This document shows, in pieces, positions 39,541 to 55,717 of a stretch of DNA of 64,000 nucleotides. How positions within the stretch are numbered: position 1 is the first letter of the stretch; every line of letters begins with the position of its first letter. Made by a program: the position numbers and the translations under genes. The notes beneath the pieces are model-generated. The model saw only the letters and a list, made by a program, of their open reading frames with translations. It made no database searches and was not told the DNA's origin. The stretch is from Bacillota bacterium (GTDB lineage Bacteria; Bacillota; Clostridia; Lachnospirales; Lachnospiraceae): contig JAQXUQ010000016.1 in the NCBI GenBank assembly GCA_029224465.1, forward strand, positions 1-64,000. Reading direction: 5' to 3'.

Positions 39541-39600
39541 GCCAGGTACGGTTTTGTTTTTCCGGATTTTACCCGCGGCTGAATAAAAGATGATAAAGAA

Positions 39601-39649
39601 AAGGTGCAGAGGACATGGCATGGAAAATACCGTGTCTCCTGCACCTTTT
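39601..39649. terminator. Bidirectional terminator
   Basis: AAAAGGTGCAG...CTGCACCTTTT between convergent genes. Confidence 0.85.
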
Positions 39650-39664
39650 GCGTACAAGAAATGT

Positions 39665-40933
39665 TTAGTGCCAGACAAACCAGATGAAGAGATAGCCTGC
39701 CGTGACAGCGACCAGCGTGAAAGGAACGCCGATTCTTACGAATTCTTTCATCGAAACATCATGACCGTCTTTGAACAGAATTCCGATTGCCGTGATATTG
39801 GCGGACGCGCCGACCGGCGTCAGATTGCCGCCCAGCGTTGCCCCGGAAAGGAGACCGAAGTAAAGGAGATAGGGATCCATATTCATAGCGGCGGCAACGC
39901 CCTGAATAACAGGCAGCATCGTCGCGACATACGGAATATTGTCGATGAACGCGGAGATCGCGACGGAACCCCAGACGATGATCGAATACAGAAGGAACAG
40001 ATTGTTTCCGCCAACGCCCGCGATCCAGTCCGCGACATCATCGATGACACCGACGTTCCGGATACCGGCGATGACGATGAAAAGCGAAGCCAGAAGAACA
40101 ATTGTCTGCAGATCTACCGACTTCAGAGCATGCGCGGAATCCTGAAAGCTCTGATAATGCACCGCGTTCCTGATGATGCAGATCAGCGCGATGATACAGC
40201 AGATCACACCGTTGGTGATATCCGGCTTTCCGGGGATAAAAGAAGCAATAATCAGCGTTACAACGACCGCGAGCAGCATGACCGTCGGAAAATAATCTTC
40301 GACGGTTGTGAAGACGTCCGCGGAAACGGGTTGCTTTTCCCTGCGGAAGACCAGCATCATGACGGGAATCGTTGCGAGCGCGCCCAGTTCAACGGCGAAG
40401 AAGATGCCGGGCCTGCCGTTCAACCAGAAGAAATTCGTGAAATCCATCTTTGCGTAGGCACCCAGCATGATCGAAGTTGTATCTCCGACCAGCGTTGCGG
40501 CGCCCTGCAGATTGGAAGAAACTGCGATGGACAGGATCATCGGCACGGGGTTGATTTTCAGCTTCTTGCAGACGGCCATGCCGACCGGCGCGACCATGAG
40601 AACAGTTGCCACATTATCGATGAAAGCGGAAATAATCCCGGCGAAAAGGGACATGAAGATTGTAACCCACATGACGTTCGGGGCTTTGTCCAGAAGATAG
40701 TCGGCGATTTTGTTCGGCATTTTCGACTCGATGAAGAAGTCGACGACGACCATGGTGCCGGAAATCATCATGAGTACGTTCCAGTCGATGGCGGAGGGAA
40801 TGCCGGCAAGCGGAGATATACCTGCGGCGGCAAAGATGACCGCGGTGATCGCCGCGACGTAAGTGCGCCACTTCGGACGGATAATCATGATAGTGTACAT
40901 CGCTACAAAGAGGATAATTGCTGCAAGTTTCAA
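39665..40933 (-). CDS. SLC13/ArsB/NhaD-superfamily permease
   Basis: Multi-TM; FIDNVATVLMVAPVG and FIDNIPYVATMLPVI, GATLGGNLTPVGASANI duplicated-half motifs. Confidence 0.88.
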   Translation of the reverse strand: MKLAAIILFVAMYTIMIIRPKWRTYVAAITAVIFAAAGISPLAGIPSAIDWNVLMMISGTMVVVDFFIESKMPNKIADYLLDKAPNVMWVTIFMSLFAGIISAFIDNVATVLMVAPVGMAVCKKLKINPVPMILSIAVSSNLQGAATLVGDTTSIMLGAYAKMDFTNFFWLNGRPGIFFAVELGALATIPVMMLVFRREKQPVSADVFTTVEDYFPTVMLLAVVVTLIIASFIPGKPDITNGVICCIIALICIIRNAVHYQSFQDSAHALKSVDLQTIVLLASLFIVIAGIRNVGVIDDVADWIAGVGGNNLFLLYSIIVWGSVAISAFIDNIPYVATMLPVIQGVAAAMNMDPYLLYFGLLSGATLGGNLTPVGASANITAIGILFKDGHDVSMKEFVRIGVPFTLVAVTAGYLFIWFVWH

Positions 40934-45240: not shown

Positions 45241-45339
45241 GTACATACAAACGCGGCAGAGAGCCGCATCCACCAACGGAGGGCACATAAATGCTGCCCG
45301 CAGGGTGGAAAGCGACGTCTCTGCCGCGTTTGTATGTAC
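45241..45339. other. Structured inverted-repeat element in the asnB/glnA divergent intergenic region
   Basis: Perfect 22-bp arms GTACATACAAACGCGGCAGAGA / TCTCTGCCGCGTTTGTATGTAC; internal CCACC/GGTGG and GGGCA/TGCCC. Confidence 0.85.
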
Positions 45340-45412
45340 TTGCTTTATGGAAGGCATTATGACGCTCTCCCGGCGACTTGTCAAGCCTATTGCATTATTG
45401 TATACAAAAGTC

Positions 45413-45441
45413 TTGACAGGCAGGAAGCCATGTGATAAAAC
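45413..45441 (+). promoter_or_regulatory. Candidate glnA promoter
   Basis: TTGACA-N17-TAAAAC (alternative GATAAA); transcript would start just before the attenuator. Confidence 0.45.
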
Positions 45442-45450
45442 CAGTTGCAT

Positions 45451-45515
45451 GAAGCAAAGGCGCTTCGGGAGACAGCCCGCACGGGCGGTCTCCCGAGGCG
45501 CTTTTTCGTTTTTTT
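45451..45515 (+). terminator. Leader terminator with overlapping alternative hairpin, directly before the glnA RBS
   Basis: Terminator 45456-45505 then T-runs to 45515; alternative GAAGC-AAAGGC-GCTTC hairpin 45451-45466; SD AGGAGG 45518. Confidence 0.8.
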
Positions 45516-45528
45516 GCAGGAGGAGCTT

Positions 45529-47634
45529 ATGGAAAATATCAATTCTGTACCGGAAATGTACGGAAGTCTTGTTTTCAATGACAAGGTCATGAAGGAACGG
45601 CTTCCCAAGGACATTTATAAGGCAGTTCACGCATGTGCTACGAATGGCACGCACCTGCAGCTGGACGTCGCCAATACGGTTGCCGCAGTAATGAAGAACT
45701 GGGCACTCGAGCATGGCGCCACACACTTTACGCACTGGTTCCAGCCGATGACAGGTCTTACCGCCGAGAAGCATGACAGCTTCATCAATCCGCAGGCAGA
45801 CGGTTCCGTGATCATGGATTTCTCTGGCAAGGAACTGGTAAAAGGCGAACCGGACGCTTCCTCGTTCCCCAGCGGCGGCCTTCGCGCGACCTTTGAAGCA
45901 AGAGGTTATACCGCGTGGGATCCTTCTTCTCCGGCATTCATTAAAGACGGCACCCTGTATATCCCGACCGCTTTCGCTTCTTACGGCGGCGAAGCGCTCG
46001 ACAAGAAGACTCCGCTTCTGCGTTCGATGGAAGCCCTCTCGAAGGAAGCCGTGAAGGTTCTGCACCTTCTCGGCAATACGGAAGTCACGCATGTTGATAC
46101 AACCGTCGGCTCCGAGCAGGAATATTTCCTGATTGACAAGGAGATGTATCTCAAGCGAAAAGATCTTCTCATGACCGGCCGCACACTCATCGGCGCTCCC
46201 GCTCCGAAGGGACAGGAGATGGAGGATCATTACTTCGGCGTCCTCAAGCCGAAGGTTTCCGAGTTCATGCACGATCTGGATCAGGAGCTCTGGAAGCTGG
46301 GTGTTCCCGCCAAAACAAAACACAACGAAGTCGCTCCCTCCCAGCACGAGCTGGCTCCGGTTTTCGAAACCGCGAACATCGCCGTTGATCACAACCAGCT
46401 GACCATGGAGATGATGAAGAAGGTCGCCGACAAACACGGTTATGCCTGCCTTCTGCATGAGAAGCCGTTCGAAGGCGTCAACGGCTCCGGAAAGCACAAC
46501 AACTGGTCGATCATTACCAATACCGGTGTGAACCTCCTGGATCCCGGCAAAACACCGGACCAGAACATCCAGTTTCTGGTCTTCCTGATGGCGACGATCG
46601 CCGCTGTAGACGAATACGCGGATCTGCTTCGTGTATCGGTCGCTACGGCCGGCAATGACCACCGTCTTGGCGCGAACGAGGCACCGCCGGCTGTCATCTC
46701 GATCTTTGTCGGCGATGAGCTCGCGAAGGTATTGAAGTCGATTGACGAAGGCACAGCTTTTGTATCCGAAGGAAAGACTTCGATGGGTCTTGCGGAAGTT
46801 CTGCCGCATATCACAAAAGATACGACAGACCGCAACAGAACATCGCCGTTTGCTTTCACAGGCAATAAATTCGAGTTCCGTATGCCGGGATCCTCGCTTT
46901 CCGTGGCTGACCCCAACATGGTACTGAACACGGCGGTTGCAGAGTATCTTTCGCGAATTTATGACGCGCTCAAGGATGTGCCGGAAGAGAGCCGCGACGC
47001 GGAAGTCAAGAAGCTTTTAAAGAAGCTGCTCGACGAGCACAAGAAGATTCTGTTCAACGGCAACGGTTATACGGACGAATGGATTGACGAAGCGCAGAAG
47101 CGGGGACTCTACAATCTCAAATCTCTTCCGGATGCAATGCCGCACCTGATCGGCGACAAGAGCGTCGATCTGTTCACAAAACACGGCGTATTCACGAAAG
47201 AAGAGCTGCGTTCGCGCTATGAGATCTTCCTTGAAAACTATGTGAAGACGATTCATATCGAATCTCTCACGATGCAGGAAATGGTCCGCAAGGACTTCAC
47301 ATCCGGCCTCGTATCCTATATGAAGGATGTCACAAACGAAGCGCTGAAGAAGAAGCAGCTGATGCCGGAGCTCAAGGTCAGCTACGAGACGGATATCATC
47401 GGAACGCTCGACGAGGCGGAAGGTGAAATCGATCAGGCGCTCGAAAAGCTGTCGGAGGATACACACAAGGCGGAAGCGGAAACCGATGCCTTGAAGACAG
47501 CAAGATATTATCACGACACAATCCTTACGGATATGGATACGCTCCGCGCGTCTGTAGATGCCGCGGAAGCGATTATCCCCGAGCAGTATCTGCCGTATCC
47601 GACGTACGGAGAACTGCTGTTTTCCCTCAGATGA
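45529..47634 (+). CDS. glnA: Glutamine synthetase type III
   Basis: KHNEVAPSQHELAPVFE; EKPFEGVNGSGKHNNWS; about 701 aa GSIII size. Confidence 0.95.
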   Translation: MENINSVPEMYGSLVFNDKVMKERLPKDIYKAVHACATNGTHLQLDVANTVAAVMKNWALEHGATHFTHWFQPMTGLTAEKHDSFINPQADGSVIMDFSGKELVKGEPDASSFPSGGLRATFEARGYTAWDPSSPAFIKDGTLYIPTAFASYGGEALDKKTPLLRSMEALSKEAVKVLHLLGNTEVTHVDTTVGSEQEYFLIDKEMYLKRKDLLMTGRTLIGAPAPKGQEMEDHYFGVLKPKVSEFMHDLDQELWKLGVPAKTKHNEVAPSQHELAPVFETANIAVDHNQLTMEMMKKVADKHGYACLLHEKPFEGVNGSGKHNNWSIITNTGVNLLDPGKTPDQNIQFLVFLMATIAAVDEYADLLRVSVATAGNDHRLGANEAPPAVISIFVGDELAKVLKSIDEGTAFVSEGKTSMGLAEVLPHITKDTTDRNRTSPFAFTGNKFEFRMPGSSLSVADPNMVLNTAVAEYLSRIYDALKDVPEESRDAEVKKLLKKLLDEHKKILFNGNGYTDEWIDEAQKRGLYNLKSLPDAMPHLIGDKSVDLFTKHGVFTKEELRSRYEIFLENYVKTIHIESLTMQEMVRKDFTSGLVSYMKDVTNEALKKKQLMPELKVSYETDIIGTLDEAEGEIDQALEKLSEDTHKAEAETDALKTARYYHDTILTDMDTLRASVDAAEAIIPEQYLPYPTYGELLFSLR

Positions 47635-53832: not shown

Positions 53833-53888
53833 CGGCAGCAAAGGGGCTGCCGCACAGGCAAAATGCCTGCGCGGCGGCTCCTTTTATG
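53833..53888 (+). terminator. Leader terminator with overlapping alternative hairpin upstream of amt
   Basis: Alternative CGGCAGC-AAAGGG-GCTGCCG 53833-53852; terminator stem 53840-53884 ending CCTTTT. Confidence 0.75.
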
Positions 53889-53947: not shown

Positions 53948-55717
53948 ATGGAAATCAGTGTATCTACTGTCATATGGGTGCTGGTAGCGACAGCGCTCGT
54001 CTATTTCATGCAGGCAGGCTTCGCTCTATGCGAATCCGGTCTGACCAGAGCCAAGAACACCGGCAATATCCTCATGAAAAACATGATGGACTTCTGCATC
54101 GGCACGCCGTGCTTCTGGTTTATCGGCTTCGGCCTGATGTTCGGCGGTACCGGCCCGCTGATCGGCCGCTTTGATCCTTTTATCCGGGGCGACTATGCGG
54201 GAACGGTGGTTCCGCAGACAATGCCTCTATGGTGTTTTGTCATTTTCGAAACGGTTTTCTGCGCGACGGCAGCGACGATCGTTTCGGGATCCATGGCAGA
54301 ACGTACAAACTTCAAAGCCTACTGCGTCTATTCCGCGGTGATTTCTCTGATCATATACCCGATTGAAGGACACTGGGTATGGGGCGGCGGCTGGCTTGCG
54401 GCGCTTGGTATGCATGATTTCGCTGGCTCCGCGGTTGTTCACAATGTCGGCGGTGTGATCGCCTGCCTCGGCGCGTGGATGCTTGGCCCCAGAATCGGCA
54501 AGTACGACAAGGACGGCAAGGCAAGAGCGATTCCCGGCCATAACCTGACCGCGATGGCACTCGGCGTATTCGTTCTGTGGTTCTGCTGGTTTGGTTTCAA
54601 CGGCGGCTCGACGATCGCGATGGACACGGCGGACAATGCGGTTACCGCTTCCAATGCTTTCATGACAACAAACCTCGCGGCGGCTGTCGCAACCGTTGTT
54701 GCTATGATCTTTACCTGGTTCAAGTACGGCAAGCCGGACGTATCGATGACCTTCAACGCGTCTCTCGCGGGCCTTGTAGCGATTACGGCAGGATGCGACT
54801 GCGTATCTCCGGCCGGCGCATTCTTCATCGGTATGGTTTCCGGTTTCATTGTCGTTCTTTCGGTTGAGTTCTTTGATAACGTCGCGAAGATCGATGATCC
54901 GGTCGGCGCGGTTTCGGTTCACATGGTCAACGGCATCTGGGGAACACTGGCGGTCGGCCTGTTTTCCACCGGCGCGGACGGCGTAGGAAAGGGACTCTTC
55001 TACGGCGGCGGCTTCCGGCAGCTCGGCATTCAGATACTCGGCATTATCGCAATTGACGCGTATGTTCTGGTTACGATGTTTATTGCTTTCAAGATCATTG
55101 ACAAGTTCATCGGACTTCGTGTTCCGGCACAGGTTGAAATTGATGGTCTGGATATTCATGAGCACGGTCTTGCAAGCGCGTACTCCGGCTTCGCGATTAC
55201 CGATGTAACACAGATGGAAGTCGACGCGAACGAAAACACGGATCTTGGCGAGAGCGATTATGACAAGGCGGAAGATTTCCGCAAGGATGCCGCGGTCAAG
55301 GTTTACCGCGCGCCGGAAACTTCTACGGATCAGGCGCCTGTACCTGTCGGCAGTTACGATACAGGCATGCACAAGGTTTCCATCGTATGCAGACTTTCCA
55401 GATTTGATGAACTCAAGAAAGCGCTCAACGAGCTCGGCGTCACCGGCATGACAATGTATCAGGTTATGGGCTGCGGCATTCAGAAAGGTTCCACCGAGCG
55501 TTACAGAGGCGCTGTCGTTGACTCTACATTGATACCGAAGGTAAAGGTGGAAGTCATTGTGTCGAGAATTCCTGTGGACAAGGTGATCGAGGCAGCCAAG
55601 AGAGCACTCTATACGGGACATATCGGAGACGGCAAGATCTTCGTTTACAATGTCACGAAGGTTGTCAAGGTCAGAACAGGAGAGGAAGATTTTGACGCTC
55701 TGCAGGACGTGGAGTAA
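53948..55717 (+). CDS. Ammonium transporter fused to a C-terminal P-II (GlnB/GlnK) domain
   Basis: Amt motifs (MQAGFALCESGLTRAKN; NVGGVIACLGAW; HMVNGIWGTLAVGLF); C-terminus from 55367 MHKVSIVCRLSRFDELKKALNELGVTGMTMYQVMGCGIQKGSTERYRGA... Confidence 0.93.
   Translation: MEISVSTVIWVLVATALVYFMQAGFALCESGLTRAKNTGNILMKNMMDFCIGTPCFWFIGFGLMFGGTGPLIGRFDPFIRGDYAGTVVPQTMPLWCFVIFETVFCATAATIVSGSMAERTNFKAYCVYSAVISLIIYPIEGHWVWGGGWLAALGMHDFAGSAVVHNVGGVIACLGAWMLGPRIGKYDKDGKARAIPGHNLTAMALGVFVLWFCWFGFNGGSTIAMDTADNAVTASNAFMTTNLAAAVATVVAMIFTWFKYGKPDVSMTFNASLAGLVAITAGCDCVSPAGAFFIGMVSGFIVVLSVEFFDNVAKIDDPVGAVSVHMVNGIWGTLAVGLFSTGADGVGKGLFYGGGFRQLGIQILGIIAIDAYVLVTMFIAFKIIDKFIGLRVPAQVEIDGLDIHEHGLASAYSGFAITDVTQMEVDANENTDLGESDYDKAEDFRKDAAVKVYRAPETSTDQAPVPVGSYDTGMHKVSIVCRLSRFDELKKALNELGVTGMTMYQVMGCGIQKGSTERYRGAVVDSTLIPKVKVEVIVSRIPVDKVIEAAKRALYTGHIGDGKIFVYNVTKVVKVRTGEEDFDALQDVE

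Follow-up and report, generated by a model that had tools for sequence, protein, structure and literature searches.

The closest described relatives of the leader studied here are the eut leaders of the EutV/EutW system in Enterococcus and Clostridia, NasR-nasF and AmiR-amiE. In each of them a hexaloop hairpin with A at loop position 1 and G at position 4 contributes its 3' arm to the 5' foot of a terminator (PMC3369931, PMC3369936, PMC8934654), an ANTAR protein is present and the genes are related to nitrogen. Classical ANTAR targets need two such hairpins, P1 and P2. P1 lies 5-12 nt upstream of the second hairpin in E. faecalis eut (Ramesh et al. 2012, PMC3369931), and its deletion from eutP ablated induction, so that by the EutV model one hairpin should not suffice (PMC3369931). 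The accepted model is that an ANTAR protein needs two hexaloops; from the EutV-RNA structure, Walshe et al. proposed one hexaloop as the minimal ANTAR binding unit, expected single sites only where polymerase imposes no time limit, and asked to what extent single hexaloops are used (PMC8934654). Dual-hairpin nitrogen regulons known from Desulfotomaculum and others likewise include the leaders of glutamate synthase, ammonium transporter and glutamine synthetase genes (PMC3369931).

We analyzed a window of 64,000 nt (positions 1-64000 of contig C16 in a draft genome of 2.55 Mb), with rumen and gut Lachnospiraceae as relatives, and focused on the leader of a glutamine synthetase gene. The leader shares the A1/G4 hexaloop and its overlap with the terminator with the eut, nasF and amiE systems, and differs from them in its loop, AANGGN, and in the absence of P1. 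The features of the locus are collected in Table 1.

Table 1. Coordinates of the glnN leader and of related features in the window
Feature	Position	Strand	Basis and details
Palindrome TTGTATACAA, directly 5' of the glnN -35	45398-45407		Conserved in most congeneric glnN leaders
Predicted glnN promoter	45413-45441	+	Sequence: TTGACA 45413-45418, 17 nt, TGn-TAAAAC 45436-45441; most congeners have TTGACA-TATAAT at this position
Predicted glnN transcription start	~45448	+	From the promoter sequence
Putative antiterminator hairpin, P2-type	45451-45466	+	Hexaloop A1 and G4: GAAGC 45451-45455, AAAGGC 45456-45461, GCTTC 45462-45466
Intrinsic terminator of the glnN leader	45456-45515	+	18+4 bp stem 45456-45505: AAAGGCGCTTCGGGAGAC (45456-45473) pairs with 45488-45505, apical GCCC/GGGC extra; T5 45502-45506, T7 45509-45515
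Translation signals of glnN	45518 onward	+	AGGAGG from 45518; ATG at 45529
glnN, glutamine synthetase type III, controlled gene	45529-47634	+	PF12437, PF18318, PF00120
Candidate third hairpin, asnB leader	45312-45327	-	GCGGC-AGAGAC-GTCGC (A1, G4); within giant-hairpin arm 45241-45339
Putative second antiterminator hairpin, 5' of amtB	53833-53852	+	CGGCAGC-AAAGGG-GCTGCCG; hexaloop pattern
Terminator stem overlapping the amtB hairpin	53840-53884	+	z = -6.5; weak T tail
amtB fused to PII (ammonium transporter)	53948-55717	+	PF00909 + PF00543; PII domain at the C-terminus

The original prediction had described a terminator stem of about 20 bp followed by T5 and T7 and ending 2 nt before AGGAGG, together with a competing hairpin that uses the terminator's 5' foot; its coordinates and letters proved exact. 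No plus-strand gene lies upstream, as had been stated, and asnB is divergent. The downstream gene does encode a glutamine synthetase, but the name glnA has to be given up, as PF12437 identifies it as type III, glnN. The leader folds with -49.2 kcal/mol (z = -7.0), and none of 200 shuffles was equally stable. In folds of the growing transcript, the minimum-energy structure up to about 47 nt was the small hairpin (-4.9 kcal/mol), and beyond this length the terminator (-41.8 kcal/mol) displaced it. Since AAAGGC and GCTTC also form the terminator's 5' foot, the two structures are mutually exclusive. No Rfam family (T-box, glutamine riboswitch or others) matched the window at gathering score. Relaxed thresholds gave nothing credible, the best sub-threshold match being rli56 with 27.6 of 47 bits.

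Within the genus, some 25 further glnN leaders retain promoter, hairpin and terminator in identical order. The -10 in the window is non-consensus, and most congeners have TATAAT there; their promoters often read TTGACA-TATAAT with TTGTATACAA before. This palindrome is probably an operator for an unidentified DNA-binding regulator, and is consistent with a GntR-type operator. When 20 glnN leaders were aligned by sequence alone, pair 7-18 of the hairpin was A-U in 13 and G-C in 7, and 9 of 15 terminator pairs had changed on both sides. The earlier terminator/antiterminator reading is supported by the covarying hexaloop stem. Within the genus, loop positions A1, A2, G4 and G5 are invariant, with A, G or C at position 3. 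When hexaloops were selected without any demand on loop sequence, A1 was present in 98 and G4 in 101 of 103, and position 3 was again free. Among individual leaders, L165, upstream of glnN in an ANTAR-bearing genome, has the loop AAGAGC with G4 changed, and L176, L181 and L231 have the loops GAGGGC, GAAGGT and GAAGGC, in which A1 is changed.

A search with covariance model R1, which was built from mostly ANTAR-bearing species, found several copies of the element per genome. The genes behind them, checked with Pfam, were glnN, asnB, carB, amtB, gltB, purF and pyrG, and also an LL-diaminopimelate-type aminotransferase (dapL), an aminotransferase IV and a TPP enzyme. The glnN element also occurred elsewhere in Clostridia, and MAGs with the labels Treponema and Spirochaetaceae had it too. 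Judged from these sequences, the targets are glutamine and nitrogen genes with a regulon-like spread. In the window, glnN is followed by gltB, gltD and the amtB-PII fusion. A pattern scan of both strands gave matches only at the glnN leader and at 53840, and amtB-PII is probably a second target of this type of attenuator. Five relatives keep an A1/G4 hexaloop stem in their asnB leaders, four of them with different loop letters. A weak model match at 39591-39654 was rejected, being most simply the terminator of a minus-strand gene ending at 39665. Elsewhere in the window's genome, two candidates have weaker support, one before a TPP enzyme (G000:C24 near 23217; L094 618) and the other some 0.5 kb ahead of an RpiR-like regulator (G000:C4 near 60296; L093 697).

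The genome of the window holds a single ANTAR gene (PF03861, E = 2e-16), on the same contig 27 kb downstream. It directly follows a gene for type I glutamine synthetase (GSI), an arrangement seen in 39 of the 40 loci examined and one that sets it apart from the ANTAR proteins of the eut, nasF and amiE systems. The pairing recalls the GS-GlnR circuit of Bacilli, in which a glutamine synthetase gene likewise stands beside a regulator; there GlnR is a DNA-binding repressor (PMC9249791), whereas the partner of GSI here carries an RNA-binding ANTAR domain. The protein's nearest solved structures are Rv1626, EutV and AmiR. It appears from its sequence to lack a phosphorylatable aspartate and would be a pseudo-receiver. 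Of the EutV residues that contact RNA, E160, K149 and M172 are kept and K147 is replaced by R; Y164 is H, as in AmiR, and R142, K143, R175 and R177 are not kept. We also observed that pyrG, GSI and the ANTAR gene are consecutive in the window's genome, and that in one relative within the family (L229; G079:C13 57000-60500, minus strand) CTP synthase (PyrG) has an ANTAR domain fused to its C-terminus.

Element and ANTAR gene occur together. Across 200 genomes of the family, the element was found in 111 of 175 with an ANTAR gene and in 3 of 25 without (p = 1.2e-6); in the genus the counts were 44 of 52 and 1 of 9 (p = 3.4e-5), and among 77 glnN leaders of named genomes 35 of 67 and 0 of 10 (p = 0.0015). 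The genus and family counts were tallied by hand from tables, and the Fisher p values are optimistic because the species are related and the model derives from mostly ANTAR-bearing species. The congeners G001 and G041 have neither ANTAR gene nor glnN hairpin. One genome, G042, has an intact element and no detected ANTAR gene, which counts against the ANTAR reading. It leaves a place for the possibility that the leader is a true attenuator whose hairpin is bound by another RNA-binding protein or by GSI itself, ANTAR being only genetically linked. The departure of the protein's RNA-binding loop from EutV points in the same direction, as do the two hairpins of classical ANTAR targets (PMC3369931). 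Against it, conservation of the A1/G4 hexaloop and genome co-occurrence favour ANTAR in three data sets, and all three A1-to-G loops (L176, L181 and L231) come from genomes in which no ANTAR gene was detected, although this rests on small numbers and one of the three genomes is 70% complete. We therefore consider binding by another factor unlikely. The original proposal of ANTAR control is well supported by the A1/G4 conservation, the recurrence of the element before nitrogen genes, the co-occurrence and the GSI-adjacent ANTAR gene, with binding and response to nitrogen still unproven.

That proposal had come with the admission that no second ANTAR hairpin could be found. P1-like hairpins, sought upstream with 3- or 4-bp stems, were detected in 2 of 124 elements, against 0.75 expected, which is chance level, and a second hexaloop downstream of P2 was observed 6 times in the element set against 5.2 expected. 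When the same rule was applied to loci around EutV-like genes as a positive control, four of the five eut-type attenuators that the analyst judged real proved to have a P1, located 3-10 nt upstream. On this sequence evidence the absence of a second hairpin is a genuine feature, shared by nearly all 124 elements. A promoter was present in 98 of the 124 distinct elements, and the end of its -10 mostly falls 10-17 nt ahead of the loop (4.7% in shuffles); this places the predicted transcription start at the 5' arm of the hairpin. P1 would then be missing because no room is left upstream, and the little space that the promoter had been thought to leave is borne out at glnN by its predicted start. 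Unlike in the eut, nasF and amiE leaders, the hairpin of glnN-type leaders begins at the predicted start or no more than a few nt from it. In the papers searched, which leave out most subscription papers, single-hexaloop attenuators of Clostridia were not described; the search of Ramesh et al. used a dual-hairpin model, which by design would miss single-hairpin leaders (PMC3369931). Set against the proposal of Walshe et al. (PMC8934654), the single site here sits in a transcription attenuator, and these leaders contradict or extend their view.

A hairpin so close to initiation could also work without any protein, if the presence of the antiterminator arm in the RNA depended on the choice of start site or on nucleotide levels, in the manner of pyrG-type leaders. 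A shift of 3-5 nt from the predicted start would indeed remove the 5' arm, and pyrG is among the targets; but this leaves the A1/G4 loop conservation and the tie to ANTAR unexplained, and the letters at the 5' start do not form a conserved homopolymer run, so that we regard protein-free control as very improbable.

We also assembled 110 promoter-proximal terminators solely by a foot AANGGN and a promoter 10-18 nt upstream, without requiring the hairpin. In this hairpin-blind set, 97 of the 110 form a hexaloop stem of at least 4 bp; with loop sizes from 3 to 10 other than six, only 0-1 do so, and other loop sizes are thus not favoured. Stem pair 4 covaries in the set (AU 72, CG 15, GC 8). The pattern was absent from all 1540 dinucleotide shuffles of glnN leaders. 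An ordinary strong leader terminator, with the small hairpin arising by chance or from terminator composition, can appeal to AAAGGCGC...GCGCCTTT being a common terminator base and to a terminator far more stable than the hairpin, but we give it hardly any credence, since the hairpin's 5' arm lies outside the terminator and yet covaries with the 3' arm, and the preference for a loop of six and the empty shuffles speak against it.

We conclude that the glnN leader is likely an ANTAR-type transcription attenuator, a variant with one hexaloop hairpin. This reading draws on what the sequences themselves establish, namely the exclusive structures, their conservation and covariation, the lack of P1, the regulon-like spread, the co-occurrence with ANTAR and the GSI-ANTAR pair; the start, the binding, the signal and the direction of control are inferred. 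RNA polymerase would initiate at about 45448, and the first ~19 nt would form the hexaloop hairpin. Unless something held this hairpin, the terminator would close some 30-40 nt later and displace it, and transcription would stop before the ribosome-binding site of glnN. Under nitrogen limitation, the presumed signal, the single ANTAR protein of the genome, whose gene stands beside that of GSI, would bind A1 and G4 of the hexaloop; the hairpin thus held would keep the terminator open and allow expression of glnN and its downstream genes. This protein would also control amtB and probably asnB, and in relatives its targets would include gltB, carB, purF, pyrG and dapL. Counted against this explanation are the lack of any experiment, the need for P1 in the EutV model, the partly lost EutV contacts and the weak T tail at amtB.

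Beyond this locus, we think it likely that a widespread glutamine and nitrogen regulon of Clostridia is governed by one ANTAR protein through a single hexaloop made of the first transcribed nucleotides, with P1 dispensable, and that the adjacent GSI may be the sensor. Such a regulon would be one possible explanation of how many gut Clostridia control the synthesis of glutamine and the enzymes that use it. The leaders are natural one-hexaloop attenuators of about 60 nt, so the single-hexaloop question becomes directly testable, and the element pattern can be used to annotate such regulons.

Several observations stand apart from this argument. The minus-strand leader of asnB forms a 99-nt near-perfect giant hairpin, with -92 kcal/mol for the leader and z = -10, which contains the A1/G4 hexaloop stem and has no clear T tract. 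A repeated or mobile origin of this hairpin was rejected, as no further copy exists in the genome. In two congeners, a second, short ANTAR ORF of 115-119 aa adjoins the other glnN paralogue, at G044:C40:67734-67862 and G053:C32:90254-90382. Finally, tandem attenuators, in which a single glnN gene is preceded by two successive hexaloop-terminator units, were seen at L144 (1500-1640) and L102 (436 and 551).
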